Below are positions 1 to 24,604 of a stretch of DNA of 39,850 nucleotides, in pieces. The stretch comes from a virus. The notes under the pieces were generated by a model. It was given only the letters and a program-made list of their open reading frames with translations. It was not told the origin of the DNA and did not search any database. The stretch lies in the IMG/VR virus record IMGVR_UViG_3300044730_001019, positions 1-39,850 of that record; one strand, written 5' to 3'. The translations under genes were made by a program, and so were the position numbers. How positions within the stretch are numbered: the first letter of the stretch is position 1; each line of letters opens with the position of its first letter.

Positions 1-1823
1 CGCCGACATGGGCCACGCTTGCGGCCGGCACCGGAGGGATCAAGCTGACGGCTGCCACAGGTTCAGTTCCTCACGTTCTCACCATCGCCGCCGACACTGG
101 CGCAGTTACTCCAGTGGACGTGTTCGGATTGGCGTCCACGATCACGCCACGCAAGCCGATGCTGCTCCCGTTCAACGTTTCGCTTGGAGCAACAATCGTG
201 GGTGATGTCGTCGCGACCGATGACAAGCGCATCCCTGGAGTCAGCGAATACACGTTGAGCGCAACGTTCACTTTCTACACCGACTTTGGCGCAACCGCCA
301 ACGACGTCGATCACGATGTCACTTGGAATCAGTTCGGAATCACAGCCTACGGTGGCAGCACATCGGCCGAATGGAACTCACCGGCAACGGCCTCGCACTG
401 GTCCACGCTTTCCGCTCACGCCGCAATCGTCTCGACTGCGGGAGCGAACGAGCAAGCAACAGCGCCGACGATTACGTGGAAAAGCGACGGCTGGCGCTTG
501 GTCGCGTGCGCTCAAGCCGAGTATCCCATTGCGCTCGGCGTCTGGCCAATGTCCATTTCGCTCTACCCTGAGACTCAGCTTGCGACCATTGACGCAACGG
601 ACGGATTTGTTCTCCGATGCGGAAACGACATTCTCGCACGTGACTCTTGGGACATCACGATCCGGCAACAGGGCCGCGTGATGTCGGATTACGTCGGGAC
701 GACGGCTGGGAGCACGGTCACGCACACAGGGCATCCGGACATCATCGGCGAAGACCCGCTAAAGGGCGGCGTGGAGTGGCGTGAGAATCGCGGCGAAACG
801 TACGCGGTGGTGACCAACCGCACCGAGTCAATCACCATCACCCAGGCTGGAACCAAGACGCTGCCAGTGTTCGTCGGCAATGACTCGGCCGAGTTCGTCG
901 GTCGGTCTCACTCCGATCCGGCGTGGTATGCCGCTCACCGGGCGGACCTGATCGCGGGAACGGTTCCGTTTCAGGCGCAGCAAGAGGTTGTCCGGCTTCA
1001 CATTCTCGCGCTCCATTACAACCACATCGCCCAACGGTTGAATGCGATCTACGCAATCGACCCGTTCACTTACGACGAGGTTGTGTATTACGGAGACCTC
1101 GCCGAGGGCTCTTGGCCGTTTGCTGTCGTGCCTCCGGATTATCAAGTCAACACGATAGCCACCGGCTCAATTGCGGACGATCTCGCAATGACTGTAAACA
1201 GCCTCACGATCAACGGCACAACAGGCTATTGGGTCAGTCAGACGGATTGTCAGACGTGGGCTGCGGCTGCCGGGTTTCGCTACCATTCGCAACGAATCTT
1301 CGGGCTTTGCGATCATTTCAGCGGATCGGAATCAGTCATCACGAGTTACATGACTGAGGCGGACAATACCTATCCCTACCGCTACCGTCCTTCCCTCGCT
1401 GGCGTGGTCTATGGTGTCGTTGCGGTGGACGACGGAAGCACGCGTGGACCCAAGTCGTACGGCCCGGTTGTCCCGTTCCCTGTCCTGACTGAAGGCGCAA
1501 TGTTGGAATTGGAAAGCAAGGTGACCAACGGTCCAACGCCGCCGACGGGGTGGACGCTTGACGCCGCTTCGTGGGTCTTCACGTACGCGCACTCCACGTT
1601 GCACTACGACAACTCCCCGCTCTCGCTGGCCAATCTCATCGACGATTGGGAGCCGTTCTCTGTGACGCCGGCGGCACCCATTGGGCCGGCATTGTGGCCG
1701 CTCACCGACCTGCCGCAGTACATCGCGCCGCAGGACATCGCGGACCTTTACGGCGAGACTGCTGGTGCGCTGGAGGCTTACAAGCTGATGATCATCCCGC
1801 GCTTCCTGTTCCTTCGATCATGA
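1..1823 (+). CDS. Large tail structural protein, 3' part (copy A, 5' truncated)
   Basis: The frame is open from position 3, so the gene enters from outside the window and supplies 606 residues up to the stop at 1821-1823. An internal ATG at 114 is not the real start. The same protein is encoded again at 37253-39850: positions 1-1631 align with 38220-39850 without any gap I could see. Most differences are synonymous and the encoded proteins stay nearly identical. The product is rich in Thr, Ser, Gly and Tyr and mostly beta-type in appearance, as expected of a virion protein. If the map is circular, the complete gene would be 929 codons (37253-38219 joined to 1-1823). Its position at the end of the tail genes suggests a baseplate, tip or fibre protein, but I recognise no specific family. 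The next gene starts inside its stop region. Confidence 0.8.
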   Translation, partial: PTWATLAAGTGGIKLTAATGSVPHVLTIAADTGAVTPVDVFGLASTITPRKPMLLPFNVSLGATIVGDVVATDDKRIPGVSEYTLSATFTFYTDFGATANDVDHDVTWNQFGITAYGGSTSAEWNSPATASHWSTLSAHAAIVSTAGANEQATAPTITWKSDGWRLVACAQAEYPIALGVWPMSISLYPETQLATIDATDGFVLRCGNDILARDSWDITIRQQGRVMSDYVGTTAGSTVTHTGHPDIIGEDPLKGGVEWRENRGETYAVVTNRTESITITQAGTKTLPVFVGNDSAEFVGRSHSDPAWYAAHRADLIAGTVPFQAQQEVVRLHILALHYNHIAQRLNAIYAIDPFTYDEVVYYGDLAEGSWPFAVVPPDYQVNTIATGSIADDLAMTVNSLTINGTTGYWVSQTDCQTWAAAAGFRYHSQRIFGLCDHFSGSESVITSYMTEADNTYPYRYRPSLAGVVYGVVAVDDGSTRGPKSYGPVVPFPVLTEGAMLELESKVTNGPTPPTGWTLDAASWVFTYAHSTLHYDNSPLSLANLIDDWEPFSVTPAAPIGPALWPLTDLPQYIAPQDIADLYGETAGALEAYKLMIIPRFLFLRS

Positions 1824-1972: not shown

Positions 1973-2093
1973 GCCCCCTCTTCCTCCCCTTCGGCCAGCC
2001 TCCCTTCTTGCCGTTGCGGCGAGCGGCTGCGGTTTTAGCCTCCGACTTCATCGCGCCACCGATGCGACCGAGGGACTGGGCGGCGGGGTTCAT
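1923..2093 (-). CDS. Small basic Ala/Gly/Lys-rich protein, 56 aa
   Basis: The start at 2093 on the minus strand overlaps the stop of the upstream minus-strand gene (ATGA), so the two look translationally coupled. The product opens with NPAAQSLGRIGG and continues with a KSEAKTAAARRNGKKGG block and a basic tail. This resembles a common family of very short bacterial and phage proteins of unknown function (pattern LG..GG..KS..KAAAAR.NG.KGG). It may bind nucleic acid because of its charge, but that is inference. Its 3' end overlaps the convergent 50-aa gene by 50 bases. Confidence 0.6.
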   Translation of the reverse strand: MNPAAQSLGRIGGAMKSEAKTAAARRNGKKGGWPKGRKRGPRTPPPGTAALPGASR

Positions 2094-2332
2094 GCGCGGG
2101 TGGCGAGAAAGATCCCGTGGTCCGGAAGATCGCCGGTGATGGTGCGCCCGCCCGCGCCAAAAACCAGCACGTCGATTTTGTAGGGAGCATCGGCCCAGTT
2201 GGCGATGGACTCCTCCACGTCCTGCACCGTGTGCTCGTCGTACCGGTCTAGCCCGTCGATTCGCCACGTACCCTCAACGGGGGTGAATTTGTCCAGATCC
2301 TCGGCGTTCTTTGCTGTGATGGTGATGTTCAT
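2090..2332 (-). CDS. Hypothetical protein, 80 aa (minus-strand cassette)
   Basis: This is a compact acidic protein starting MNITITAKNAEDLDKF. It contains aromatic and charged segments (TWRIDGLDRYDEHTVQD, SIANWADAPYKIDVLVFG) and has no signal peptide or membrane segment. It lies only five bases after the stop of the minus-strand gene at 2338-2538 and overlaps the start of the next minus gene by four bases, so it belongs to one operon with them. No family is recognised. It could equally be an anti-host or regulatory protein. Confidence 0.65.
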   Translation of the reverse strand: MNITITAKNAEDLDKFTPVEGTWRIDGLDRYDEHTVQDVEESIANWADAPYKIDVLVFGAGGRTITGDLPDHGIFLATRA

Positions 2333-2337
2333 CGCTT

Positions 2338-2538
2338 TTAGTAAAGGTTTGCGTTAATCACTCGCGCCGCTCCGACGTTAGTTATGGTTCCGGTGAACCC
2401 GTTTCGGCGGGCGTGTTCAATGATGCGGTCAACGAAAGTGCTTTCGGCTTTGACTTTGTACGTCGACCCCTTTTGGTGAGCGTGGACGTATTCCCAATTT
2501 ACGGATTCGCTGAACGTAGGACTTTTCTTGGTCTTCAT
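2338..2538 (-). CDS. Hypothetical protein, 66 aa (minus-strand cassette)
   Basis: The start chosen is the ATG at 2538 (MKTKKSPTF), preceded on the minus strand by a purine-rich GGGAAAG stretch. A longer reading from 2577 would add an unlikely leader. The protein is basic with a mixed alpha/beta look (VNWEYVHAHQKGSTYKVKAE, then a helix with HARRNGF and a C-terminal beta-type segment). No signal peptide or known domain is seen. It sits between two other small minus-strand genes and is probably cotranscribed with them. Confidence 0.6.
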   Translation of the reverse strand: MKTKKSPTFSESVNWEYVHAHQKGSTYKVKAESTFVDRIIEHARRNGFTGTITNVGAARVINANLY

Positions 2539-2604
2539 GGTGCGTTTCTTTCCCGGGCTTGTAACCACCCGCCACAACCCCCGCGTGGGGGCTGGGACGG
2601 AGGG

Positions 2605-2832
2605 TTAGGGGCGGAAGATCGGGGCCATGGAAAACTTGCCGTGCGCGTAGACGTATTCCCCATCGCAATCCCGGCCGATCTTCTTGCGAGTCGTCGATCC
2701 GTGAACCAACAGGGTGGCAAACGACCCTTTTCGCTCGATCACCGTTGCGGTGAAGATGCAGTCGTAATCGCAGGCAGAACGGGCCTTGAGCGTCTGGCCG
2801 GCTTCGATCGTCGTGCTCGTGTTCGTTTCCAT
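2605..2832 (-). CDS. Small conserved-type phage protein, 75 aa (minus-strand cassette)
   Basis: The ATG at 2832 is chosen because an N-terminal extension to 2904 looks like a read-through shadow. The pattern is beta-rich, with two cysteines (CDYDC), a TATVIERKGSFATL strand pair and a C-terminal GKFSMAPIF. Small proteins built the same way (CD..C.F..TV..R...V......R..G.....Y..G.YSMAPV) occur in actinobacterial and phage genomes without a known function; I recall this pattern rather than having searched for it. It lies downstream of the exosortase-type gene on the same strand. Confidence 0.65.
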   Translation of the reverse strand: METNTSTTIEAGQTLKARSACDYDCIFTATVIERKGSFATLLVHGSTTRKKIGRDCDGEYVYAHGKFSMAPIFRP

Positions 2833-2940
2833 GCCCGAGACCATATACCCAACCGCTTGGGCATGCAACCAAAAGAAAAGCGCGGAGGACTTTTCAAGTC
2901 GCATCCGCGCTAGGGTGAACGGGTTAGGGAGTGCGATTTT

Positions 2941-3654
2941 TTACGCGAGAATCCGTTTCGCGCTCCAGATCCCCAGCAACGCGCAGCCCAGCAGGCCGAG
3001 CGCGGAGCCGGCGTCCGGGGTCACCGTAATCGGGCCGACGTAACCGGGGAGGAACGGGCTGTACGTCGGGAGATTGCCGACCGGAGGCCAAATCGCAGAG
3101 CCGGGGCCGTCGAGTTGGATGTCGTCGATGATCGCGCCGAAATTGATGTTTTCGTTCAGGGATTCGAACATGAGCCGCGTGACGGATTCCGTAGCCACGA
3201 ACGAGGTGGACCGCGTCGCGAACGCAATTGTCGCTTCCGACTGCTTCTCGAAATCCTCCGATTGCACGCCTCCGAAGGACACGCGCAGTCTTCCGACAAA
3301 AGCTGTCTGGAGGTTTCCGTTTGCTGCCATTGCAAACGTGAGTGTGTACATCTCGCCCGGAGTCGTGTTGAGATCCTGATAGATGTACCCAGGCCCGAGG
3401 CCGTTGAGTTCCAAGCTCTGACTGCCGTCCGGCGGCGTCCAGAACGACGCCGGGACGATGTCAACGCTGTCCCTGCCGACCACCCAACCGTCGAACGTAG
3501 TGCCGCCCCGAAACGACGTGACGGAACCGTACAGAATCGCGCCGGTTTGAGTCGTGCCCGAGATCGGATCTTCAAACGATCCGTTGCGTATGATGTTCGC
3601 GGACGCCGATGCGGACGCGAGGATTGCGAGTGCTGCGAGTGTTTTCATGTTCAT
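2941..3654 (-). CDS. Secreted anchor-C/DUF642-like protein with VPDSG/PEP-CTERM-like sorting tail
   Basis: The 237-aa product starts with a Sec signal peptide (MKTLAALAILASASASA, predicted cleavage before NIIRNGSFEDP). Next comes a beta-sandwich resembling choice-of-anchor C/DUF642 proteins, with the hallmarks NGSFEDP, FDGW.V, DGSQSLELNG and TPGEMYTLTF, and an IDDIQL strand near residue 175. The C-terminus has TPDAGSALGLLG, a hydrophobic helix and a KRILA basic end. That is the layout of VPDSG/PEP-CTERM signals cut by exosortases, with Thr replacing the usual Val. Such signals are typical of Verrucomicrobiota and some other Gram-negative bacteria. The protein should be exported and anchored at the host envelope. 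No exosortase is seen here, so the host enzyme would be needed. It is transcribed away from the early genes, like a lysogenic or early conversion (moron) gene. Starts at 3654 or 3648 are both possible. Confidence 0.85.
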   Translation of the reverse strand: MNMKTLAALAILASASASANIIRNGSFEDPISGTTQTGAILYGSVTSFRGGTTFDGWVVGRDSVDIVPASFWTPPDGSQSLELNGLGPGYIYQDLNTTPGEMYTLTFAMAANGNLQTAFVGRLRVSFGGVQSEDFEKQSEATIAFATRSTSFVATESVTRLMFESLNENINFGAIIDDIQLDGPGSAIWPPVGNLPTYSPFLPGYVGPITVTPDAGSALGLLGCALLGIWSAKRILA

Positions 3655-3776: not shown

Positions 3777-3968
3777 ATGCAACGCAAGAAACGCAAACGG
3801 CACATCTCGTCAGGGGTCAGTCTCCCCGTGGGGTTAAGGACGCTGGCCGATGCCCGGGCGGATTCACTCGGCCTCACGCACAGCGGATACGTCCAGGCGG
3901 CCGTCGAGTTTGAGGTGCGCAACAAGCCGCTTCAACCGCTCCCCTCGAAAGACGAGGTGGCGTCGTGA
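3777..3968 (+). CDS. Ribbon-helix-helix (Arc/CopG-like) regulator, 63 aa
   Basis: After a very basic N-terminus (QRKKRKRH), the pattern SSGVSLPVGLRTLADARADSLGLTHSGYVQAAVEFEV fits a ribbon-helix-helix fold: a beta strand, a first helix, a GLTHS.YV turn and a second helix. The start at 3777 is the first ATG that yields this domain only; an upstream reading from 3609 would run through the regulatory region. It is the first gene rightward of the divergent promoter region and overlaps the next start (GTGA at 3965). A likely role is control of the early or minus-strand promoters by binding the TGCA repeats just upstream. The role is inferred from fold and position. Confidence 0.6.
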   Translation: MQRKKRKRHISSGVSLPVGLRTLADARADSLGLTHSGYVQAAVEFEVRNKPLQPLPSKDEVAS

Positions 3969-5671: not shown

Positions 5672-5803
5672 ATGGAGCACGCCATTTGCCTCATCGCCGT
5701 CGGCCTTCTCGCCGCAACCAAAATCGACCCCATTACAATCATGATCCTAACCGCTGCGTTCCTGGCAGTACTCGCAGCAATGACCATCCTCTCGAGGGAA
5801 TAA
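5672..5803 (+). CDS. Small hydrophobic membrane protein, 43 aa
   Basis: Two hydrophobic segments (ICLIAVGLLAA and ITIMILTAAFLAVLAAMTIL) are separated by the short turn TKIDP, so this looks like a helical-hairpin membrane peptide. The reading frame continues upstream, but the ATG at 5672 fits the end of the previous gene. The stop is followed directly by the structured leader at 5807-5867. It is too short for a family call. Confidence 0.55.
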   Translation: MEHAICLIAVGLLAATKIDPITIMILTAAFLAVLAAMTILSRE

Positions 5804-5806
5804 TCC

Positions 5807-5867
5807 CACCCCCGGGCGCTAACCGATCAGGGGGGTGAGCACGCAAAGCGTCCATCCCAACGCCCGG
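5807..5867. promoter_or_regulatory. Candidate riboregulatory leader with competing helices
   Basis: One fold stacks CCGGGCG/CGCCCGG (5812-5818 with 5861-5867), GGGGTG/CATCCC (5832-5837 with 5853-5858, one G-U) and ACGC-AAA-GCGT (5841-5851). A mutually exclusive alternative pairs CACCCCC (5807-5813) with GGGGGTG (5831-5837), disrupting both outer helices. The element ends 29 bases before the ATG at 5897. Two exclusive conformations are what an attenuator or riboswitch would show. The ACGCAAAGC string recalls a piece of the c-di-GMP-I riboswitch core, but the rest of that motif is absent. Confidence 0.4.
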
Positions 5868-5896
5868 TGCAATTTTGGAAACCAGAAAGCACACAC

Positions 5897-6526
5897 ATGA
5901 ACAAAGAGCCTCAGACGGTTAATTGGTCAAAACAAAAGCCAGGAACAATCGGTGTCACCAGGCACGGCAATCATCAGTTTGAGTTTGTCGCCAGCCGAAT
6001 AAACGGAGCGGTTTTTCACAACGAACACAAAGGGTGGGAGACAAGGTCCGTTTTTGGCCGCAAGTGGCTGGATAAGGACATGCCGGATGACATCCTCCTC
6101 CCATGGGAGTACTGCCTCGCCGAAGGGCACAACCCGGACGGGCTGACCAATGTGCAGGTGGGTGATGGGTTTAGGCTGCAAAATCTTGGAGAGATGGCCG
6201 CAAGCGACGGCCAGCACTGGCGCGGCGAATGGGTTAACAACGGGCCGCATTTCCAGCGCGAAATCACCAACGCACACTGCTCCCACCGCGTCCCCATCAC
6301 CAAGCCCAAGCGCCGCATCTCGTGCGGACCGGAGCACTTTCCTCCGGGGACAGTTTTTCGGGTTGCATGCCACGACCTGACTTCTTGGGAGGCGATCCAC
6401 GGCGTAAATGCGCGCGGGATTGTCAGGGGTGGGGTGTTTGTAACATACGAAGACCTTAAGGGTTTGGAACGATCCACCGACTTCGGCAAGACGTGGCTGC
6501 CGTGCTACGTCGAGACCGAAGAATAA
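5897..6526 (+). CDS. Hypothetical protein with internal repeat, 209 aa
   Basis: Two segments look like diverged copies: NGAVFHNEHKGWETRSVFGR with KWL near the N-terminal third, and RGGVFVTYEDLKGLERSTDF with GKTWL at the C-terminus. This implies an internal duplication of a small beta-rich unit. Several cysteines and histidines (NAHCSHRV, ISCGPEHF) lie between the copies. The ATG at 5897 is chosen over an upstream in-frame start at 5867 because that one falls within the leader hairpin. The function is unknown. Confidence 0.6.
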   Translation: MNKEPQTVNWSKQKPGTIGVTRHGNHQFEFVASRINGAVFHNEHKGWETRSVFGRKWLDKDMPDDILLPWEYCLAEGHNPDGLTNVQVGDGFRLQNLGEMAASDGQHWRGEWVNNGPHFQREITNAHCSHRVPITKPKRRISCGPEHFPPGTVFRVACHDLTSWEAIHGVNARGIVRGGVFVTYEDLKGLERSTDFGKTWLPCYVETEE

Positions 6527-6564
6527 TTTCGGAAACGACACTAAATCACGCAAATAAGTAAACC

Positions 6565-7662
6565 ATGTCTTCACTATCAGTCATCCCAAAACAGTCCAGT
6601 CAGGAGATCGCAGCGTCAGCCTCGGCCGCGCTGGCCAAGGCTACCATCGAAGCGAAGTTCACGATGGCGATGCACCGGCCCCGAAACTTCATGGACGCAA
6701 GGACCAGCATCCTTGACTCGTGCAAGCGTCCGGCGTTTGCAGCCAGAGCCATGTATCGCAAGAAGCAGGGCAAGAAGAAGGACGACAACGGACGGTGGGT
6801 GGACAACATCGTTGAGGGGCTTAACATTCGTTTTGCCGAGATGGCGATTCAGTACTGGCGCAACGTCGACGTGACCGCCACCACCGTCTGGGAGGATGAC
6901 GAGCGCCGAGTTGTCAGAATCATGGTGACGGATTTGGAGAGCAACACGAGCTACAGTGACGAGGCGAGCCTTTCCAAAACCGTGGAGCGATCTTCGGTGA
7001 GGGAGGGTCAGGAAATTCTTACCGAGCGCCTTAATGCCAGCGGCGAAAAGGTGTTTATTGTCCGAGCGACCGAGGACGAGCTTGCGAATAAAATCAACTC
7101 CGCAAAGTCAAAGGCTATCCGAAATAGCGGGCTCCGACTCATCCCGCAGGACATTCAAGAGGAGTCGATTTCCGTTATCAAGGCGACCAACAGCAACGGC
7201 GGGGAAGACCCGAAGAAGGCGTCCAAATCCGTGTGCGATGCCTTTGCTGGGATCGGAGTCAATCCGAGCGAGATCGAGATTTACCTTGGCCATTCGATAA
7301 ACACGGTGTGTCCGTCCGAGTTGGGAGACCTGCGCGCCATTTACTCCACCATCCGCGACGGCGAGGCGGTTTGGAATGACTATCGGAGCGCGGATCGAGT
7401 GCCAGAGAAGCAGGAGACCAGGCCTGCCGCCACCGAAGCCACGAAGGCGGAAATCGTATGCCCTCAACGCTCGCTTTCGGATCGCCTGACCGAGGCCGGC
7501 GTGTCCTTTGACGACTTCAAGAAGTGGGCCGCGAAACACCAGCCAGGAATTGCCGCCGAGACCCTCCCCGGATACGACCACCTGGAGTCAGCCGACGCCA
7601 AGCGACTCCTCCGCGCCGTGGACGGAATCATCGCGCAGATCAAGGAAGGGGGCGCGAAGTGA
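6565..7662 (+). CDS. Candidate phage recombination/ssDNA-annealing-type protein, 365 aa
   Basis: The N-terminal 230 residues include RPRNFMDARTSILDSCKRP, then GLNIRFAEMAIQYWRNVDV, a DLESNTSYSDEASLSKTVE strand-helix region and NKINSAKSKAIRNSGLRLIP. They follow a pattern I recall from phage proteins coded near recombination nucleases and SSB. The C-terminal part (SLSDRLTEAGVSFDDFKKWA) is a helical accessory domain. It is followed by a coiled-coil partner-like gene (7892) and later a VRR-NUC nuclease and SSB, a normal setting for a RecT/ERF/Sak-type function. No classical RecT or Rad52 motif is seen, so the role is inferred from context. Confidence 0.5.
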   Translation: MSSLSVIPKQSSQEIAASASAALAKATIEAKFTMAMHRPRNFMDARTSILDSCKRPAFAARAMYRKKQGKKKDDNGRWVDNIVEGLNIRFAEMAIQYWRNVDVTATTVWEDDERRVVRIMVTDLESNTSYSDEASLSKTVERSSVREGQEILTERLNASGEKVFIVRATEDELANKINSAKSKAIRNSGLRLIPQDIQEESISVIKATNSNGGEDPKKASKSVCDAFAGIGVNPSEIEIYLGHSINTVCPSELGDLRAIYSTIRDGEAVWNDYRSADRVPEKQETRPAATEATKAEIVCPQRSLSDRLTEAGVSFDDFKKWAAKHQPGIAAETLPGYDHLESADAKRLLRAVDGIIAQIKEGGAK

Positions 7663-7895: not shown

Positions 7896-8578
7896 ACACC
7901 GCCATCACCATCTTCCAACGCTCCGACCTGACCGTCTCCAAGTCTCCCGGCGTTGACGATCTGATTGAGTCCGCGCTGTCACGGTCGGCGCTGATTGGCA
8001 AGGTCGAGACATCGGACGAGAACGAGGTTGCGAACGGCGCAATGCTCGGGATCAAGAGCCTTATTTCGGGTGTGGAGAAGGCGCACAAGGAGGGAAAGCG
8101 GGACCCGCTGAAGCTTTGCCAACGTTACGACGAGCTGAAGCGTGAGATCCTGAAGCCTCTTGAGGAGGAATACGCCCGGCTTGGCGACTTAATGGCGGAT
8201 TACGTAAAGGCGAAGCTCGACATGGATCGAGCCGCCCAAGCTCTGCGATCCGCCGAGATCGCCAAGATTGAGGCTGACGCCACGTTGGAGCCCGAGTTGA
8301 AGACTCAGGCCATCGAGGCAGTGACATCGGTTCCGGCACCCGAGAAGCCACAAGGTCAAACCGTCCGCGAGGAATGGGAGTTTGACGTCACCAATATCTG
8401 GGACGTGGTCCGCGCCAATCCCGGACTCGTCGAAATAACCCTTCGCAAACGTGAGACGCGGGAGTGCATCGAAGCCATCGCGAGGACCGGAGCGCAACCC
8501 AAGATCCCCGGCCTCCGCATCTGGAAGGAAGTTAAGGTCGGGGTGCGGTTGGATAAGGCGAGGACGGTGGACGTATGA
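7892..8578 (+). CDS. Coiled-coil phage protein in recombination operon, 228 aa
   Basis: The start is TTG at 7892, after a GGGGGGAA ribosome binding site and overlapping the previous TGA. Residues about 60-115 are helical and charged (KLCQRYDELKREILKPLEEE), predicting a coiled coil. The C-terminal part (EWEFDVTNIWDVVRANPGLV, then an ECIEAIARTGAQPKIPGLRI segment) resembles small C-terminal domains seen in phage coiled-coil proteins coded beside annealing proteins and nucleases. It probably cooperates with the protein at 6565. Exact function unknown. Confidence 0.55.
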   Translation: MNTAITIFQRSDLTVSKSPGVDDLIESALSRSALIGKVETSDENEVANGAMLGIKSLISGVEKAHKEGKRDPLKLCQRYDELKREILKPLEEEYARLGDLMADYVKAKLDMDRAAQALRSAEIAKIEADATLEPELKTQAIEAVTSVPAPEKPQGQTVREEWEFDVTNIWDVVRANPGLVEITLRKRETRECIEAIARTGAQPKIPGLRIWKEVKVGVRLDKARTVDV

Positions 8579-8757
8579 CAGCCGAACAACTCTGGCAATG
8601 GGTCGAGCGAAACAACGCGAGCCTCGTGCCAATCTACGACGAGAACGAACGCAAGAAAGGATACCTCTGCATGACTGAATTGACGACATGGATCGAAGGA
8701 ACGGACGCACGCAACGCGGTGGAGAAATGCGCCAAGCTGCTGGAGGGAGACAAGTGA
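8575..8757 (+). CDS. Hypothetical protein, 60 aa
   Basis: This is a short helical protein (AEQLWQWVERNNASLVPIYD, then ELTTWIEGTDARNAVEKCAK) in an ATGA overlap with the preceding gene and a GTGA overlap with the next. No motif is recognised. Strict coupling on both sides makes it likely real. Confidence 0.6.
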   Translation: MTAEQLWQWVERNNASLVPIYDENERKKGYLCMTELTTWIEGTDARNAVEKCAKLLEGDK

Positions 8758-8939
8758 ACGCCACGCTTCAATGCGAGGACCTGCAATCGGTGGTCACAAT
8801 CACACGCGGAAGTGTGACGATCAACGTTAGCACTCCGGACGACGAGATCATGGCCCGACGAATCGGCGATCTTGAGTCGGAGATCGCCAAACTCAAACGC
8901 GAGAACATGGCTCTTGTCGACAAACTCGAACGCAAATGA
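8754..8939 (+). CDS. Hypothetical protein with C-terminal leucine zipper, 61 aa
   Basis: It starts at GTG 8754 in a GTGA overlap. A short beta-type N-terminus (SVVTITRGSVTINVSTPDDE) precedes a heptad-like helix (RRIGDLESEIAKLKRENMAL with VDKLER) that should dimerise as a coiled coil. The stop overlaps the next ATG. No family assignment. Confidence 0.6.
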   Translation: MNATLQCEDLQSVVTITRGSVTINVSTPDDEIMARRIGDLESEIAKLKRENMALVDKLERK

Positions 8940-9085
8940 AACGCCAAGACACCATCATCCTAATCGTGGCCATGTCCATCGCCCTGTCGCTCGCGGTATC
9001 CTGCGTCAAGCGGGCCAGCAAGGAACGGGTTTGGCGGGATGGGTTGTGGATCGATAAGGCGGAATACCAGAAGAGGAAGCAATGA
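8936..9085 (+). CDS. Small lipoprotein or membrane-anchored peptide, 49 aa
   Basis: The N-terminal hydrophobic stretch (TIILIVAMSIALSLAVSC) ends in a cysteine in a near-lipobox context (AVSC, with Ala instead of Leu at -3). A basic segment and a short soluble tail with two tryptophans follow. It overlaps its neighbours by ATGA on both sides. An envelope-directed early peptide fits a superinfection-exclusion or host-envelope role, but this is inference. Confidence 0.55.
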   Translation: MKRQDTIILIVAMSIALSLAVSCVKRASKERVWRDGLWIDKAEYQKRKQ

Positions 9086-9291
9086 ACCGCTCATTCACCC
9101 AATCCCATACGAAAACCGTCGTTATAATGTCCGCCGAGTACCTCGCGGACCTACTCAAGTACCTGGGCGCAATTTCGCACTCGACGCGACCAGAAGAAAT
9201 TCAAGTCACCGGAGGCGAAAAAGGGCAAGGAATGCAGGTAACGATTGAATCCGGAATCGCGGAAATCGAACTGCCAAAGGTTCTGCCATGA
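9082..9291 (+). CDS. Hypothetical protein, 69 aa
   Basis: This is a small soluble protein with a helix (MSAEYLADLLKYLGAI) followed by beta-type segments (EIQVTGGEKGQGMQVTIESG). It overlaps both neighbours by ATGA. No domain is recognised. It sits directly upstream of the VRR-NUC nuclease. Confidence 0.6.
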   Translation: MNRSFTQSHTKTVVIMSAEYLADLLKYLGAISHSTRPEEIQVTGGEKGQGMQVTIESGIAEIELPKVLP

Positions 9292-9683
9292 ACATCCCTA
9301 TTGGCTGGATCAAACTTCAGGACGGGTCCTACGCCCCGCCGTCCGCACTGGGTCGACTCGTGTCGGTGGGCGCAGCTCCGGTGGATGCCTGCGTAGTGGA
9401 GGCCGAACTCCACGCTCAAATCTTGGACGAGTGCCGGCGTCGCGGCTACCCGGTTCACCACGCCCGCATGGACAGGCCGGCAACGTGCGGCGTGGGCACG
9501 CCTGACTTCGTTGTTGCCCTGCCTGGAGGTCGAAGCCTCTGGGTCGAAGCCAAGAGCAAGGCTGGTAAGCTGAAGAAGGAACAAGCGGCATGGCTCGCCG
9601 CACTACGCCGGCACGGTCACGCGGCCGAGGTTGTCCGGTCCATGTCGGAGTTCATCAATGCGGTTAAGGAGGCAATGAAGTGA
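9288..9683 (+). CDS. VRR-NUC domain nuclease, 131 aa
   Basis: This small PD-(D/E)XK nuclease carries the VRR-NUC hallmarks. Glu39 precedes a helix (ELHAQILDECRRRG). Then come GVGTPDFVVAL with Asp73, LWVEAKSK with Glu87 and Lys89, and a closing helix with a strand (KLKKEQAAWLAALRRHGHAA, EVVRS). These residues form the expected metal-dependent active site. Stand-alone phage VRR-NUC proteins probably resolve branched DNA or act as structure-specific nucleases in replication and packaging. Length and motif order are typical. It is tightly coupled to its neighbours (ATGA and GTGA). Confidence 0.85.
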   Translation: MNIPIGWIKLQDGSYAPPSALGRLVSVGAAPVDACVVEAELHAQILDECRRRGYPVHHARMDRPATCGVGTPDFVVALPGGRSLWVEAKSKAGKLKKEQAAWLAALRRHGHAAEVVRSMSEFINAVKEAMK

Positions 9684-9895
9684 ACATCGAATTCAGAGCA
9701 AGAACACCCGAGGCGGAGGCGGCCATCGCAAACGGCGACATGCAGATTTCCGTGCGGGTTGGTCAGAAGAATCAGGAAACGATCAGTCTCGACGAGTTCT
9801 GCCGTCGCATGTCTCGCCTTGGTCAGAGGCTCAAGCTTCTCCACGAGACGGTCAGGAACGAGACAGACAAACTTTCGGAGGATCACTACCTATGA
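9680..9895 (+). CDS. Hypothetical helical protein, 71 aa
   Basis: GTG start in a GTGA overlap with the nuclease gene. After a short beta strand the product is mostly helical (ISLDEFCRRMSRLGQRLKLL, then HETVRNETDKLSEDHYL). No known motif. Its stop overlaps the next ATG. Confidence 0.6.
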   Translation: MNIEFRARTPEAEAAIANGDMQISVRVGQKNQETISLDEFCRRMSRLGQRLKLLHETVRNETDKLSEDHYL

Positions 9896-14189: not shown

Positions 14190-14437
14190 AACTCACAATA
14201 TCACTCTTGCTCGCCATGCTGCTCGTCGGCTGCGGCACAACCCGAGACCAGCGGTGCGGGGCGTACAAGATCACTTACGAGCTATACCGGGCTTCCACTG
14301 CCTTGAGGGAGCCGAGCAAACAAGAGGTCGACGCAGCGCATGCGGCCAGCGTGTTCCTTACCATCTACTGCGGATGGACCAAAACTAGGGGCGTGGACCA
14401 GCACGGGGTGCCGGTGATCGTGGAGGGAAAGCCATGA
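14186..14437 (+). CDS. Small lipoprotein, 83 aa
   Basis: The ATG at 14186 overlaps the previous stop and gives a clean type II signal peptide (MKLTISLLLAMLLVGCGTTR) with a canonical lipobox LVGC, cysteine at residue 16. The mature part is about 68 residues and contains two further cysteines. The protein should be lipidated and anchored to the inner or outer membrane. It lies far from the lysis genes and within the replication block, so superinfection exclusion is more likely than an o-spanin role; both are inferences. Confidence 0.7.
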   Translation: MKLTISLLLAMLLVGCGTTRDQRCGAYKITYELYRASTALREPSKQEVDAAHAASVFLTIYCGWTKTRGVDQHGVPVIVEGKP

Positions 14438-15117: not shown

Positions 15118-15557
15118 CCATCGCCGAACTCGCACGATACGCATCCGCCTACCCCGCCGAATGGGAGGTGATCCGAGTCAATACGATGTCCGGCCAGGTC
15201 ATGGCAATCCCCCCATCCGAGGAACAGCCCGAGGCCAACATGAGCGTGCAGATCGCCATCCGTGAGGCGTGCAGGCTTTGGAACGTGACGCCAGACGACA
15301 TCCGCAGCGGACGTAGGCCAATGCACATCGTTCGGCCTAGGCTGGCCATCTACAAGGCCTTGACCGAGCATGGAATGAGCACGGTCGAAGCTGGCAGGCA
15401 CCTCGGAAAGGATCACGGTAGCGTCTGCCACGGAAGGAAGTCGTGCGAGGCAATGATCGCAACAAATCCCTCCTACCGAGCCGAGTACGCCCGCTTTGAC
15501 TCGGCCTTCTGTCAGTCAATCGAACTGTTGGCTAGGGCGCGCCAAAAGGAAAAATGA
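15114..15557 (+). CDS. DnaA domain IV-like DNA-binding protein, 147 aa
   Basis: Residues about 55-130 follow the DnaA C-terminal domain: a first helix region (AIREACRLWNVTPDDIRSGR), then RPRLAIYKALTEHGMSTVEA and GRHLGKDHGSVCHGRKSCEA. KDHGSVCHG corresponds to the DnaA signature RDHTTVxHA that reads the DnaA box. No AAA+ ATPase part is present, so it binds DNA without loading activity. It may recognise origin or promoter boxes, or compete with host DnaA. The ATG at 15114 follows GGGAGG. The N-terminal unit resembles the previous gene. Confidence 0.7.
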   Translation: MTIAELARYASAYPAEWEVIRVNTMSGQVMAIPPSEEQPEANMSVQIAIREACRLWNVTPDDIRSGRRPMHIVRPRLAIYKALTEHGMSTVEAGRHLGKDHGSVCHGRKSCEAMIATNPSYRAEYARFDSAFCQSIELLARARQKEK

Positions 15558-16276: not shown

Positions 16277-16289
16277 GACCAACCAATGA
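15558..16289 (+). CDS. Overprinted +1-frame ORF covering the Dcm gene, 243 aa
   Basis: This frame is open from four bases after the Dcm start to 13 bases after its stop, an unusual length for a chance frame. Its ATG (15558) sits seven bases after AGGA, a better ribosome spacing than the Dcm ATG. The product has blocks such as MSWHFSRALVAEFSGANSLD, SWKTHQLLLF, WPRYGMMRNGELYPLP and MGWPDGWTDLSELETGKF. I recall proteins with the same blocks from many phages; they may be translations of the same overlapping arrangement. Translation is plausible but not shown, and automated propagation of a shadow frame is an alternative. Confidence 0.45.
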   Translation: MSWHFSRALVAEFSGANSLDGEQSALLNGMSMPGMFSSPDKTTAALIHSQFGTTCVPSTDGPGLASWISFLADSRVRTSVQQEDQTDSGYPDRDQGSGQAWRASLAKLDRDSCSWKTHQLLLFGGLEPYSGTWPRYGMMRNGELYPLPMLEHDTSVREFGSWPIIGTPIKTQRCRSEAFMSPAKNPFELCPRGFLPSPKWVERLMGWPDGWTDLSELETGKFRKWSDLHGTYWPQSRDNETNQ

Positions 16290-18252: not shown

Positions 18253-18717
18253 ATGGAGTGGAGCTTGCAAGCGGCATCGACGGAGTTTGGCGTGGGTCGG
18301 GACACGTTGCGAAAAGCGCTCACTGACGCCGGGCACAAACTGACCGGAGATCGAGTGAAGTTCTCGACCCGCACCATTCACGAAGCCCTGTCCCGTCGCG
18401 GTGGCCTGGAGGCCGCCCGTGAGGCTGAGACATGGGAGCGACACCGGCAGCTAAAGCTGGAGAACGAGAAGGAGGAAGGCACTCACTGGCACCGCGACGA
18501 TTGCCTTGCCTACATCGCCCGACGCCTTCAACCGATCCGGCAGCGCATCATCTCCCGCGCAACCCGGATGGCAGCGACGGCGAACCCAACCGACCCAGAG
18601 CACGCCCACCGGGTTCTCACCGAGGACGCAGACTCAGAGTTGCGACTGTTCAGCCAACCCGAACCCGAAGTGCAGCAACCAAAGAACGATGAGGAAGCAG
18701 ACACAACGGGAGATTGA
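18253..18717 (+). CDS. Small terminase subunit (Nu1-like), 154 aa
   Basis: The N-terminal 40 residues (MEWSLQAASTEFGVGRDTLR, KALTDAGH) look like the winged helix-turn-helix of Nu1-type small terminases. A long charged helical region follows (EAARE, ETWERHRQLKLENEKEEG). It binds the packaging site and recruits the large subunit. The ATG at 18253 is preferred to the GTG at 18247; neither has a strong ribosome site. The large terminase starts inside its last 29 bases, the usual linkage. The position directly before a GpA-type subunit supports the call more than sequence similarity does. Confidence 0.7.
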   Translation: MEWSLQAASTEFGVGRDTLRKALTDAGHKLTGDRVKFSTRTIHEALSRRGGLEAAREAETWERHRQLKLENEKEEGTHWHRDDCLAYIARRLQPIRQRIISRATRMAATANPTDPEHAHRVLTEDADSELRLFSQPEPEVQQPKNDEEADTTGD

Positions 18718-20575
18718 CGGCGAGTTTGCCCGCTGGTTTGCACCAAGGCCAACGGTCAAGCCCTCGGAGTGGGCGGCACAGAACATTGTGCTTCCCGCTT
18801 CGGAGCAACGAGGGGTTGGCCCTCTGACCTGGGCCGGTCGCGAGTTCGCCATCGAGCCGTTGGACGCCATTGCAAACCCAATGATTTCCGACATCGCTCT
18901 GTGCTTTGGCAGCCAGATCGGGAAGACGGTCATCGTAATGTGCGGTAACGCCTACGTGATCGAGAACGACCCTCGCGGCATCCTTTGGGCGCTTCCGGAC
19001 ATCAACCTTGCCCGCAACTTCTCAAAGCGCCGATGGATGCCGCTTGTCGAGGCGTGCGCTCCGCTTGCGAGGAAGATCCCGACCGGCAAAAAACGATACG
19101 ACTGGGCGGCGCTGAGTCAGGTTCTCAACGGCACGGAGATCGACTTCATCGGCTCCAACAGTCGCGCCGGCATGTCGAGTCGTCCCAAGGCCATTGTGGT
19201 CTTGGACGAAATGGACAAGTTTACGCTTGAGACTGCGGCTGGCAAAGAGGCGGGCGCGGTTGAGTTGATCGAGCAGCGCGTCAAGGACCAGCCTTCCCCC
19301 AAGCGCATCAAGACATCGACTCCGTCCGTTGTGGACGGTCCCGGCTGGGTCGAGTTCTTGAAGGGTGACCAGCGCCGATACGAAGTCCCTTGCCCCCACT
19401 GCGGTGCCGGCGTGTTCCTTGCATGGATCAAGGGGGCATCGTTGTTGAAGGCTGACGCCCGAGACGCCCACATTGCATGGGACAAGGAGGCCGAGGGCGA
19501 TGGCGGCGTGGTGGATTACGACCGGATCGTCAGGACTGCCCACTGCGTATGCCCTCACTGCCGGGGCCAGATCGATGAACACCACAAGCTTGGGATGGTG
19601 CGTAAGGGGCGATGGATGGCCACGGCGTTGGCTCCGTCGTCGTTCCGCTCCTATCACCTTCCCAGCCTCTACGCATCGTCACCAGGCACGACGCTGGGGC
19701 TTCTGGCGCGGCAATACGTGATGTTGCAGCGCAGCAACGAGGGGGTCAGGGGTTTCATCAATGGAGCGTTGGCCGAGCCCTACGAATCGCAAAGCGAAGG
19801 CGACATCCGGACAGAGACCGTGGTTCCGGTCACGGCCGGTTCCATTGCAGAGCGTGTCGTCCCAATCCTGTCCGTGGACGTACAACGCTCACAGCCGATG
19901 CTCTACTGGATCGTCCGGGAATGGGACGCGACGGGAACCGGGGACAGCCGGCGCATCGGAGTCGGTACCTGTGATTCGTGGGAGGAGTTGGAACAGGTGC
20001 AGTCCAAGTACGGCGTCCAATCCAACCACGTCATCCTCGACACAGGCGACGGTGAGCGGACGGAGGAGCTTTACACGGTTTGCGCCAATCACGGGACCAA
20101 GAAGCCGCGCAACGGGGGGAGGCCGATGCATTTCGGCTGGATGCCGTCAAAGGGAGCTCCGCGCGGCAAGCGTTGGGACAACCAAGCCAAGACGGAGCAG
20201 CGTCCGTTCACCCTTTCAAAGCAGGACTTTGGCGGCTCCAAGTTCGACTTCTACCTCTTCCTTTTCGCCGGCCCCGATTACCAAGACATGCTGCACCAGC
20301 TTGGCAAGGGACCTGAGCGCAATAACGGGGTGAGGTTCGAGGTTCGCGCCGACCCGGCAAGGGACGAACGCTATTGGCAGCACAGGGACGCCAAAATCTG
20401 GACCAAGACCGGATTCAACAAACGCACCGGCAGGTTTACCGGGGAATGGACATTGCGATCCGCTCACCGGCCGGACCATTGGAACGACTGCGAAATCATG
20501 CAGCTTGCCTACGCATCCATGCTCAAACTGTACCGCTGGCCCGGTTCCCGCGTTGAAACGGAGGTTGCCAAGTGA
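18689..20575 (+). CDS. Large terminase subunit, GpA family, 628 aa
   Basis: The packaging motor ATPase/nuclease is recognised by FGSQIGKTVIVMC (Walker A G74-T80), IVVLDEMDKF (Walker B around D173-E174) and the GpA-type Cys pairs CPHCG and CPHCR that form a zinc site in the middle of the protein. The nuclease part begins at LSVDVQ (Asp397). The ATG at 18689 gives MRKQTQREIDGEFARWF, the expected start; the longer reading from 18506 is a shadow of the small subunit. It cuts concatemers and drives DNA into the prohead. The 628-aa length is typical of lambda gpA-like proteins. Its stop overlaps the next GTG. Confidence 0.95.
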   Translation: MRKQTQREIDGEFARWFAPRPTVKPSEWAAQNIVLPASEQRGVGPLTWAGREFAIEPLDAIANPMISDIALCFGSQIGKTVIVMCGNAYVIENDPRGILWALPDINLARNFSKRRWMPLVEACAPLARKIPTGKKRYDWAALSQVLNGTEIDFIGSNSRAGMSSRPKAIVVLDEMDKFTLETAAGKEAGAVELIEQRVKDQPSPKRIKTSTPSVVDGPGWVEFLKGDQRRYEVPCPHCGAGVFLAWIKGASLLKADARDAHIAWDKEAEGDGGVVDYDRIVRTAHCVCPHCRGQIDEHHKLGMVRKGRWMATALAPSSFRSYHLPSLYASSPGTTLGLLARQYVMLQRSNEGVRGFINGALAEPYESQSEGDIRTETVVPVTAGSIAERVVPILSVDVQRSQPMLYWIVREWDATGTGDSRRIGVGTCDSWEELEQVQSKYGVQSNHVILDTGDGERTEELYTVCANHGTKKPRNGGRPMHFGWMPSKGAPRGKRWDNQAKTEQRPFTLSKQDFGGSKFDFYLFLFAGPDYQDMLHQLGKGPERNNGVRFEVRADPARDERYWQHRDAKIWTKTGFNKRTGRFTGEWTLRSAHRPDHWNDCEIMQLAYASMLKLYRWPGSRVETEVAK

Positions 20576-20900: not shown

Positions 20901-21162
20901 GTCGGCCCGCAATACCTACCTCGACGGGCTGGCTGACGCAGCGCAAGCCGAGCTTGATTCCGGGAAGCAACTGACGAGCGCATCGGCTGGTGGCGTTAGC
21001 TCTGGGTGGTCCTCCGCTGCCGGTTCCGATCCCGAGAGCCGCCTTGAGCTGTACGAGTGGGCGCGTGATTACATCGCCGAGGCGACCGTCGCCGCCGCTG
21101 TTGCGCTGATTCCGCTTTCTACCTCCGCTGTCGCAACCGACTTTTCGGGGGTGCGCGGGTGA
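20818..21162 (+). CDS. Head-tail connector candidate before portal, 114 aa
   Basis: The C-terminal part (LADAAQAELDSGKQLTSASA, then ESRLELYEWARDYIAEATVA) is a helix-turn-strand arrangement in the size range of gpW-like connector proteins. Its position between terminase and portal matches gpW of lambda. Start choice is uncertain: GTG at 20818 or GTG at 20848, neither with a clear ribosome site. The stop overlaps the portal GTG. The call rests mainly on order. Confidence 0.5.
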   Translation: MSSVALPNHRVRRSFIRSVYRNASASTESARNTYLDGLADAAQAELDSGKQLTSASAGGVSSGWSSAAGSDPESRLELYEWARDYIAEATVAAAVALIPLSTSAVATDFSGVRG

Positions 21163-22646
21163 GCATCCTTGCACCATCCGGAGTCCCTGCCCGCCTGGAG
21201 ATCCGCAGGAACACCATCCGCGCTCGCTACGATGCCGCATTCTCCGGTGGTCCAGAGCGCACGTCCGCGCCGCAGTACCAGCACCCGTATCGCGACATTA
21301 CTCCATCCGTCCGAATCCGACTGATGGATGGATCTTGTGACCTCGCGGACAACTCCCCGTTCTTCTCTGGCCTGTTTGAACGCTTGGTGACCTACGTTAT
21401 CGGCACCGGCATCTGGCCGCAGAGCGATTCCGGGGACAGCGAATGGGACAAGCTGGTTGACGATCAGTTCCAGTCCGACGTCGAAGATTGCGAAGTTCGT
21501 GGCGGTGTATCGTGGGCCACGCTTCAGCAGCAAGCCTATCGAACGGAAATCAAGCAGGGTGACTGCGGCGAAATCCTGACCAATGACGAGCAAGGCAACC
21601 CCAAGGTCCTTGCCGTCGAAGGTCGAGACATTGGCGACAGGTGGGGCGTTACAACCTCCAAGGATCTTTTCGACGGCGTCCGCATTGGACCGCGCGGCGA
21701 GCGTCTCGGCTACGTCCTGACCAGCGAGGACCCGCTTGGCACCAGCATCACAATTCCGGTTTCCGCTGACTGGTTCGTTCACCATTTCAACCCGCTTCGT
21801 CCCGGCCAACTCCGGGGGATACCTCTCCTTGCTTCGGCCCTGAATACAGGCCGGGACGTTCACGACATCCTGAATCTTGAGAAGCTGGCCGTGAAGGATG
21901 CCAGCAGCAAGACCGACATCATCAAGACTGAGTCGGGGCAGTTCGACCCCGAGGAGGCGTACAACGCGGGCGGAGCCACTTCGGACGGTTCGGACGGTGA
22001 GGACCGCGCCAACTACTATCGCAAGATTTTCGGCCCCGAGGCCCGATACATCAAGCGCGAGGACTCTTGGGAGGCCTACAAGTCTGATCGTCCCGGTCCT
22101 GCGTGGCAGGGATTCATGGACTTCCTCAGCCAGACAATCTGCCTAGCTGCTCGCATTCCCCCTTCGGTCCTTCTCCAAATTAAAGTCGGCGGCGCTGATA
22201 CTCGCCGAGACCTTGCCGCCGCCGCCCGCGTGTTTGAGGCAGAGCAACACCGGCTTGCCGGACAATGGGCTAGGGTCCGCAACTTCTTTGTCCTGCGTCG
22301 CATCGAGGACGGAACACTGAAAGGCGCTCCTCCCACTTGGCGGCGTGTTTCTTGGCAGTTCCCAAAAGCCATCACCGTTGACGCCGGTCGGGAGGCTCAA
22401 CAGGACCGCGAGGACGTTCGTGGCGGGTTCATGTCGGAACAGGAGTATCAGGGTCGATGGGGAGCCAACTGGCGCAAGCACCGAGACCAAGTTGAGCTTG
22501 AGACTCGCGACAGAATCCAACGGGCAAAGGCCGTTTCCGAGGCTGAGAATGTTCCGTTTGACGTGGCGCTTCGGATGCTTGGAACTCCGCAGGATCAGCA
22601 GCCTCCTGCGCAACTGCCGCCTCAACAGCAGGCACCAGCACAATGA
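21159..22646 (+). CDS. Portal protein, lambda gpB family, 495 aa
   Basis: The N-terminus (IRARYDAAFSGGPERTSAPQ, then the LADNSPFFSGLFERLVTYVI stretch) and the core (AVEGRDIGDRWG, PVSADWFVHHFNPLRPGQLR, GIPLLASALNTGRDVHDILN) match lambda-type portals. It forms the dodecameric ring for DNA entry and tail joining. Start is the GTG at 21159 in GTGA overlap; stop overlaps the next ATG. The C-terminus is Gln/Pro-rich (PQDQQPPAQLPPQQQAPAQ), a flexible tail seen in many portals. Confidence 0.9.
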   Translation: MSILAPSGVPARLEIRRNTIRARYDAAFSGGPERTSAPQYQHPYRDITPSVRIRLMDGSCDLADNSPFFSGLFERLVTYVIGTGIWPQSDSGDSEWDKLVDDQFQSDVEDCEVRGGVSWATLQQQAYRTEIKQGDCGEILTNDEQGNPKVLAVEGRDIGDRWGVTTSKDLFDGVRIGPRGERLGYVLTSEDPLGTSITIPVSADWFVHHFNPLRPGQLRGIPLLASALNTGRDVHDILNLEKLAVKDASSKTDIIKTESGQFDPEEAYNAGGATSDGSDGEDRANYYRKIFGPEARYIKREDSWEAYKSDRPGPAWQGFMDFLSQTICLAARIPPSVLLQIKVGGADTRRDLAAAARVFEAEQHRLAGQWARVRNFFVLRRIEDGTLKGAPPTWRRVSWQFPKAITVDAGREAQQDREDVRGGFMSEQEYQGRWGANWRKHRDQVELETRDRIQRAKAVSEAENVPFDVALRMLGTPQDQQPPAQLPPQQQAPAQ

Positions 22647-23644
22647 AACGCATCCGCGCCTATATGGTTGGCATCCTGTCGCGTCAGGGCCAAGAGCTTG
22701 ACCAGTGGAAGCCCCAGCAGTCACTCGAATGGATGCCGTCTGGAACCAACGAGATTCGAGTTGCTGGACCGGAAGGCGAGCCGGCCGTCTATCTCGTTTC
22801 AACTGCGCCGGAAGACGCGGAGACACTCGACAAGCAGCTTCAGTCAGCGCTTGCGCTTGCTGCTGAAGGCAAGGCCAGTCGGCCATTCATCGACTTTAAC
22901 CACGACGGCGAGCAGGCCGCAGCGATCCCAAAGAGGTTCTTTTGGGACGACGGAATCCGCCTGGAGGTCGAGTGGACCGGAAGCGGGGTCGCTGCCCTAG
23001 CAAACCGTGACTTCTCCTATTTCAGCCCTGAGTTCTACCTGTCCGACGACGGGCACCCGACGGGCATTCCCGAGGTTGGTCCGATTGGTGGGTTGGTAAA
23101 TACACCAGCCTTTCAATCAATCGAACGCCTTGCCGCAAAGAAATCCCCGGAGGCTCCAGCCTCCGACACCAAAGGCAAAAAAATGGAATCGCTACTCGCG
23201 AAACTGGCTGCCGCCGGGGTCGTTCCCAAGGACCAGCCAATGACCGAAGACGCTCTGGTTGAGAGTCTCACGGCCATGAAGAAACAGTACGACGAAGCCA
23301 ACGCTGCGTCGCAAACCGCAACCGCAACTGCCGCTTCGCTGAAGAGTGAACGTGATGCGCTCAAGGCGAAGATCGACGAAAGCGTGAAAGCTTCGGCCGA
23401 GCGCGATGTCACTGCCGCTATCGCTGCCGGTAAGATCGACGAAAGCCAAAAGGCTGGCTGGGTTGATGACTACATCGCGAACCCGGAGCGCATCGTCGCG
23501 CGACTGGCTGGAATCAAGACCGCGCCCGTCAAGGCGTCCGGGCATCCAAACGACAAACTTCCTGCCAAAAGCGCGGGAGGCGGAGAACTCACCGGAATCA
23601 ATCGCGTCGCGGCTGCTTTCGCTGCCAAGCGCGGGAGCAACTAA
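22643..23644 (+). CDS. Mu gpI-like prohead protease fused to scaffold, 333 aa
   Basis: The N-terminal 170 residues (IDFNHDGEQAAAIPKRFFWD, VEWTGSGVAALANRDFSYFS, PEFYLSDDG, GPIGGLVNTPAF) match the Mu protein I type of phage protease. The FNHDG and ALANRDFSYFSPEF blocks are most diagnostic. The C-terminal part (residues 181-333) is coiled-coil and Ala/Lys-rich, as in scaffolds. An internal ATG at 23183 (MESLLAKLAAAGVV) may give a free scaffold, like lambda Nu3 inside C or Z inside I of Mu. It cleaves the scaffold during prohead maturation. Located just before the major capsid gene. Confidence 0.85.
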   Translation: MKRIRAYMVGILSRQGQELDQWKPQQSLEWMPSGTNEIRVAGPEGEPAVYLVSTAPEDAETLDKQLQSALALAAEGKASRPFIDFNHDGEQAAAIPKRFFWDDGIRLEVEWTGSGVAALANRDFSYFSPEFYLSDDGHPTGIPEVGPIGGLVNTPAFQSIERLAAKKSPEAPASDTKGKKMESLLAKLAAAGVVPKDQPMTEDALVESLTAMKKQYDEANAASQTATATAASLKSERDALKAKIDESVKASAERDVTAAIAAGKIDESQKAGWVDDYIANPERIVARLAGIKTAPVKASGHPNDKLPAKSAGGGELTGINRVAAAFAAKRGSN

Positions 23645-23659
23645 CCACAAGGAGACATC

Positions 23660-24604
23660 ATGCCAAACGCAACTCTTCTCGACATTGCCAAACTCAACGG
23701 TTCCGACGCGGTTGTTGGACTGATTGAGGAGGTCAGGACAGCGGCTCCGGAAGTGATGGTACTTCCGGCGCGCACCATTCGCGGCACTAGCTACAAGACC
23801 GTTCATCGCACCGGATACCCGGCCGTCGGTTTCCGAGCCGCCAACGCCGCAACCACGGCCGGCGCTTCGACGTTCACGAACAAACTGGTTGAGACCTTCA
23901 TTCTCTCCAGTCTTATCACCTGCGACAAAGCCGTGGCCAACGCCTACGAAGACGGCGTTGGCGCTTGGCAGGCCATGGAGGCCGTCGGGGTCGCCAAGCA
24001 GGCCATGATTGAGCTTGGCCAGCAGATTTTCTACGGCACAAACACGACCTTTGGCGGAAATGACGCTGGGTTCCCTGGTCTCCTTGGCACCTACGATTCA
24101 ACCAACATGGTCGTGGACGCTGGCGGCACGACTGACAACGTCGCTTCCTCCGTTTGGCTTGTCGCCACCGGCACACAGGATGTTTCCCTCATCCTTGGGA
24201 ACGGTCAGGCGATGCAGCTTTCTGACTGGCGCGAAGAGACTGTCTCTAGCGTTCCGTCCTATGTGGCCGACCTGACTGGCTGGATTGGCCTTCAGGTCGT
24301 CAACCCGTACTCCGTTTGCCGCATTCGGAAGATCACCACCGACAGCGGCAAGGGTCTTACGGACGCACTCATCGCGGACGCAATCGCCAAATTCCCGGTT
24401 GGCATGACTCCGAATTACATCTTCATGAATCGACGATCTAGGATGCAGCTTCACAAGAGCCGCACCGTGACGCTGTTTGGCGGCCCTGGGGCTTCCAAGC
24501 CGGCCGGCAGCGTGGAGCTCGTGGCACCGATTCCGGATTCCGCCTTTGGCATCCCCATCGTGACCACGGACAACATTCTCAACACCGAAACGCTGGCCAG
24601 CTAA
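23660..24604 (+). CDS. Major capsid protein, 314 aa
   Basis: A strong AAGGAGA site precedes the ATG. The sequence has a short N-arm (ATLLDIAKLNGSDAVVGLIE), central helical LVETFILSSLITCDKAVANA, GAWQAMEAVGVAKQAMIELG, QQIFYGTN, the G/D-rich GFPGLLGTYD loop, and a C-terminal TDALIADAIAKFPVGMTPNY with MNRRSRMQL and GIPIVTTDNI. This is the pattern of HK97-fold capsid proteins in phages with lambda-type portal and Mu-type protease. The upstream protease/scaffold and downstream cement gene agree. Expression is expected to be the highest in the genome. Confidence 0.9.
   Translation: MPNATLLDIAKLNGSDAVVGLIEEVRTAAPEVMVLPARTIRGTSYKTVHRTGYPAVGFRAANAATTAGASTFTNKLVETFILSSLITCDKAVANAYEDGVGAWQAMEAVGVAKQAMIELGQQIFYGTNTTFGGNDAGFPGLLGTYDSTNMVVDAGGTTDNVASSVWLVATGTQDVSLILGNGQAMQLSDWREETVSSVPSYVADLTGWIGLQVVNPYSVCRIRKITTDSGKGLTDALIADAIAKFPVGMTPNYIFMNRRSRMQLHKSRTVTLFGGPGASKPAGSVELVAPIPDSAFGIPIVTTDNILNTETLAS

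Follow-up and report, generated by a model that had tools for sequence, protein, structure and literature searches.

A tailed-phage gene for a DUF642/choice-of-anchor-C protein with a VPDSG-type tail suggests phage cargo sorted by a host exosortase

A gene of a tailed phage encodes a DUF642/choice-of-anchor-C protein that starts with a signal peptide and ends in a sorting tail of the VPDSG type. It lies at positions 2941-3654 of IMG/VR virus record IMGVR_UViG_3300044730_001019, a stretch of 39,850 nucleotides that is referred to here as the window. No exosortase was found in the window, and exosortase-type cargo recurs in other phages. On balance, we lean slightly towards the view that the gene product is phage cargo sorted by the exosortase of the host and that it remodels the host surface, with a block of re-adsorption as the likeliest benefit.

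The open reading frame is intact and encodes 237 aa, MNMKTLAALAILASASASANIIRNGSFEDP...TVTPDAGSALGLLGCALLGIWSAKRILA, according to the ORF list and its translation. The gene and its parts are as follows.

2941..3654 (-): predicted exported DUF642/choice-of-anchor-C protein with a VPDSG-type sorting tail, 237 aa (ORF, translation, Pfam, NCBIfam)
3598..3654 (-): signal peptide, residues 1-19, MNMKTLAALAILASASASA (sequence and hydropathy peak)
3112..3594 (-): DUF642/choice-of-anchor C domain, residues 21-181 (PF04862, TIGR04362)
2944..3021 (-): TPDAG-helix-KR tail, residues 212-237, with the HMM match at 213-235 (PF18205, TIGR03778)

The N-terminus consists of MNMK, a hydrophobic stretch and ASA, as in a Sec-type signal peptide, and by the AxA rule cleavage is likely to occur before NI. 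The two most hydrophobic stretches of the protein are located at its N-terminus (TLAALAILASASASA) and its C-terminus (AGSALGLLGCALLGI), and KR follows the second of these. In Pfam, DUF642 (PF04862) matched residues 21-181 with 56.1 bits against a gathering cut-off of 27. The choice-of-anchor C model of NCBIfam (TIGR04362) was covered nearly in full (1-156 of 157) at 105.6 bits, below its whole-protein cut-off of 120, and the Pfam model CBM_4_9 matched weakly, with 13.8 bits, under its cut-off. The original prediction, which described a phage gene with a signal peptide and an anchor-C/DUF642-like domain, was supported on each count: by the phage genes on both sides and the overlapping contig ends, by the sequence and its N-terminal hydropathy peak, and by the PF04862 score, with TIGR04362 staying short of its threshold. 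That a phage gene codes for a DUF642/anchor-C protein with a sorting tail is confirmed as a real observation. No relative of the protein was present in the PDB, and AlphaFold run without an alignment gave no usable model (pLDDT 33).

The C-terminal tail carries TPDAG at residues 212-216, followed by a helix and by KR 3-4 residues from the C-terminus, and its motif departs from the VPDSG consensus. The VPDSG-CTERM model of Pfam (PF18205) matched residues 213-235 with 27.0 bits against a cut-off of 25, so that a PEP-CTERM-like family does recognise the protein, whereas the NCBIfam model (TIGR03778) scored 20.9 bits, 1.1 under its cut-off of 22. The predicted TPDAG-helix-KR tail was therefore upheld by one HMM and narrowly missed by the other. 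A six-frame search of the window placed the tail match at 2947-3018. A crude tail test (PD[SAG]G, a helix, and K/R at the very end) was passed by one of 373 frames of the window, that of the 2941-3654 protein. When frames were shuffled, 4 in 100,000 passed, and when the window protein itself was shuffled, 6 in 100,000 did. The tail assignment is supported by these sequence comparisons, though it is marginal on one of the two models. A chance or artefactual origin of the tailed gene was judged unlikely.

The window represents the genome of a tailed phage, about 38.2 kb in size and near-complete as judged from its overlapping ends: bases 1-1631 match 38220-39850 at 88.7% identity. Most simply, the contig would be one turn of a circular or permuted genome, with its ends derived from two strain variants. 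The features that define the setting of the gene are listed below.

3..1823 (+): last tail-module gene, C-terminal part (end-overlap comparison)
2090..2904 (-): three small downstream co-directional ORFs at 2605-2904, 2338-2577 and 2090-2332, no family match
3780..3968 (+): divergent small ORF of 62 aa that shares an intergenic region with the window gene, no Pfam match
18689..20575 (+): terminase large subunit (phrog_15, E 1e-83)
21159..24604 (+): portal, head maturation protease and major capsid (phrog_21, phrog_328, phrog_212)

The window also carries tape measure and tail-spike-like genes, as well as a phage DNA helicase, a methyltransferase, a primosomal gene and SSB. The gene of interest is found between the tail and early modules, where the tail gene ends 1.1 kb away, and it is the first in a run of four minus-strand ORFs; the three small ORFs after it are probably part of one leftward transcription unit with it. 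The divergent ORF at 3780-3968 appears regulator-like by eye. A simple sigma-70-type promoter-like site was not found for the gene, whose GC (0.61) and GC3 (0.76) are in line with the remaining phage genes. A search of the window for tyrosine integrases found none, and the scanned window proteins included no recognisable endolysin.

Several further features of the phage were noted. A small lipoprotein-like ORF at 14192-14437 (+), MKLTISLLLAMLLVGCGTT..., has no PHROG match and is perhaps an Rz1-like spanin. Two tail-module proteins of about 1000 aa each, encoded at 26671-29682 (+) and 29679-32726 (+), possess Sec-signal-like N-termini (VRTILALILLVSFSAFGQS and VKLLLSILFASVSCLAQ); by eye, one is tail-spike-like and one glycoside-hydrolase-like. 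A related protein on another contig (L003, 7498-9738) opens in the same manner (MKTTAVIALLFLAVASFGQS), and exported tail or depolymerase proteins would be unusual in this phage group. In another part of the window, the ORFs 15554-16276 (+) and 15558-16289 (+) overlap almost completely in different frames. One is a cytosine methyltransferase (phrog_363, E 5e-54) and the other matches another conserved phage family (phrog_1008, E 2e-20), with 38% identity to other phages, whose annotation at the matching position is a cytosine methyltransferase. The stretch 15554-16289 is missing from the near-identical contig L002, and the two ORFs may form a conserved overlapping pair carried by a mobile cassette.

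No relatives of the window protein were found in INPHARED, or by peptide patterns in IMG/VR and GTDB. An anchor-C DNA pattern matched 27 IMG/VR contigs, none of which encodes a relative, and a canonical VPDSG DNA pattern of uncertain sensitivity gave no match there. Anchor-C proteins of cellular origin, encoded on Streptomyces and Pseudorhodobacter plasmids, are about 32-35% identical to the window protein. They share its extracellular domain (TIGR04362/PF04862), which is that of choice-of-anchor C/DUF642 surface proteins; they differ in lacking the VPDSG tail, and the window protein for its part falls below the whole-protein cut-off of TIGR04362. Terminase scans yielded only two close contigs, neither of which extends to the locus of the window gene, and revealed no prophage in GTDB. 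Of the isolate matches that were listed, Akkermansia phage Moulinsart carries the segment most like the window terminase, with 35% identity across 56% of the query and 32% when the full alignment is taken. Together, the VPDSG tail and this terminase similarity tentatively suggest a host among the Verrucomicrobiota. In this phylum, 65 PEP-CTERM proteins have been described for Verrucomicrobium spinosum (PMC1569441), and 21-23 such proteins plus EpsH for Akkermansia (PMC3048395, PMC4960237).

Exosortase-type cargo is also encountered on other viral contigs. IMG/VR was scanned with a PEP-CTERM DNA pattern of 15 specified bases that was designed blind to viral context and that picks up only one PEP-CTERM shape. 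This pattern matched 75 contigs. In 71 of the 75 the match was a true C-terminal tail, as at most 45 aa separate the motif from the end of the frame; R/K is found close to the end of nearly all of these tails, and 64 of the proteins have signal-peptide-like starts by a crude rule. All nine test proteins passed the Pfam PEP-CTERM model PF07589. A terminase large subunit was present on 24 of the 50 records checked; none was found on the remaining 26, and IMG/VR membership alone is no proof of virality. No exosortase was found on the 50 records. On two contigs, tandem pairs lie beside a phage helicase: at 5755-7493 (-) of L103 two exported proteins both have PEP-CTERM tails, and at 8256-9807 (+) of L084 one protein has such a tail and its neighbour a signal-peptide-like start. 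Proteins of family 2 were absent from INPHARED.

One group of these proteins, family 1 (ATLQIEVFDNG...), was present in 21 of the 50 checked records, and all 24 aligned members matched the PEPxxWA-CTERM and PEP_CTERM models. Like the window protein, family 1 combines a signal peptide, a small secreted domain and an exosortase tail, and is phage-encoded without a phage exosortase; unlike it, family 1 has an unrelated mature domain and a PEPxxWA tail and is recurrent, whereas no phage relative of the window gene was found. A comparison of 21 loci gave 87% identity for the mature part, with a dN/dS of 0.08 at a dS of about 1, which is close to saturation; the signal peptide is 49% identical, and the tail after PEPSTWA 37% identical with a dN/dS of 0.53, a rough value given the short regions. 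These ratios apply to family 1 alone, the window protein having no phage relatives found. Conservation of the mature part alongside a drifting tail would be expected under selection for the secreted part, with the tail serving as just a removable helix. In 320 of 420 ordered locus pairs, at most 100 bp were common outside the gene, which indicates that the family-1 gene occurs in many backgrounds. For example, it is flanked by DNA primase and DNA polymerase on L114, and on L059 and L118 it has a polymerase-helicase module on one side and endolysin/tail-fibre genes on the other, a module boundary like that of the window gene. Tyrosine integrases were found in none of the 21 family-1 records and in 12 of the 29 others (Fisher p = 5e-4), a difference that tends to favour virulent phages as family-1 carriers, with the proviso that the contigs may be partial and related. 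Family-1 proteins are absent from INPHARED and PLSDB; an AlphaFold model made without an alignment was weak (pLDDT 54), and Foldseek returned nothing below E 1e-3.

Phage proteins that alter the host envelope have precedents. Llp of phage T5 is a superinfection-exclusion lipoprotein that acts at the cell surface. Lipoproteins of this type are phage-made envelope proteins, as the window protein is predicted to be, and Llp acts on later adsorption; Llp has a lipid anchor and a known receptor target, whereas the window protein has an exosortase-type tail. With the VPDSG-CTERM proteins (PF18205/TIGR03778), which bear a PEP-CTERM-like exosortase signal, the window protein has in common a short C-terminal motif, a hydrophobic helix, a basic end and the features of an exported protein; it differs in its TPDAG motif, in falling 1.1 bits short in NCBIfam, and in its origin from a phage in which no exosortase was found. 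In the literature searched, without preprints and with few subscription papers, the one mention that bears on phage use of exosortase sorting is a tally of 13 TIGR03118 proteins in a set of viral gene-transfer candidates from Yellowstone (PMC11003980). TIGR03118 is a putative exosortase-interaction domain, and these viral contigs are comparable in that respect; the set is given without mechanism, context or selection analysis. The statement that no phage use of the pathway had been described was therefore nearly right, and has to be qualified by these 13 proteins and by the PEP-CTERM cargo in many viral contigs. Phage envelope cargo itself is known; the sorting route is what has not yet been described for phages.

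From established exosortase biology (PMC1569441), the following course can be proposed. An infecting phage would make the DUF642 protein, which Sec would export and the C-terminal TPDAG-helix-KR tail would keep in the inner membrane. The host's own exosortase would cut at the TPDAG motif, and the carbohydrate-binding-like DUF642 domain would be passed to the outer surface or the exopolysaccharide, where it would coat or alter host surface glycans. Glycan binding is a reasonable guess because DUF642 is distantly like carbohydrate-binding modules, as in the weak CBM_4_9 match. The favoured benefit would be that re-adsorption of phages is blocked, since lytic-type phages gain little by improving a doomed host, and superinfection blocking is accordingly a plausible role for the window protein. 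The recurrent PEP-CTERM cargo in IMG/VR supports this reading by analogy, the variant there being PEP-CTERM and not VPDSG. Points that weigh against it are the off-consensus TPDAG motif, the narrow shortfall in NCBIfam, the failure to find a simple promoter-like site and the lack of homologues in the phage collections searched.

Alternatively, the gene may be a passenger, i.e., a host surface-protein gene gained by chance, sorted as in the host and useless to the phage. Anchor-C proteins are ordinary cellular proteins, and no relatives were found in the phages or viral contigs searched, both of which fit such an origin; the unbroken reading frame, GC and GC3 values like those of the phage, the small genome and strong purifying selection on comparable cargo (family 1) speak against it, and we consider it unlikely. 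Somewhat less probable still is a biofilm or adhesion protein, carried as lysogenic cargo, that aids the infected host and does not protect the phage. PEP-CTERM systems are associated with exopolysaccharide and with life at surfaces (PMC1569441), but no tyrosine integrase was found in the window or in any of the 21 family-1 records, against 12 of the 29 other records that have one, in a test of possibly incomplete contigs for this integrase type. A further reading, that the hydrophobic ends have no sorting function and that the protein is a carbohydrate-binding part of the particle, or bound to it, is improbable. The signal-like N-termini of the two long tail-module proteins and a choice-of-anchor A stretch reported beside a phage tail-fibre gene (PMC5135824) would agree with a virion protein; the gene, however, is on the minus strand outside the structural operon, and its C-terminal helix with a KR end matches a sorting HMM. 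An assembly artefact fusing a host fragment to a phage contig is very improbable: the contig ends are variants differing by 11%, indicating that the assembly mixes strains, and the near-identical contig L002 stops short of the region, but the overlapping phage tail gene lies 1.1 kb to one side and phage early genes to the other, and the composition is phage-like.

Exosortases and their substrates are widespread, and their purpose is poorly understood. We give an even chance to the broader proposition that surface-remodelling proteins in need of a host exosortase are carried independently by phages of several lineages, as a general strategy in PEP-CTERM/VPDSG-CTERM bacteria that has hardly been noticed to date and that includes at least one horizontally spread and strongly conserved family. 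If true, exosortase substrates kept by phages under strong purifying selection would imply that the surface products of the pathway matter to infection. Such phage cargo would offer a handle on what PEP-CTERM and VPDSG-CTERM proteins do, and a sorting route would be added to the known means by which phages change the host envelope.
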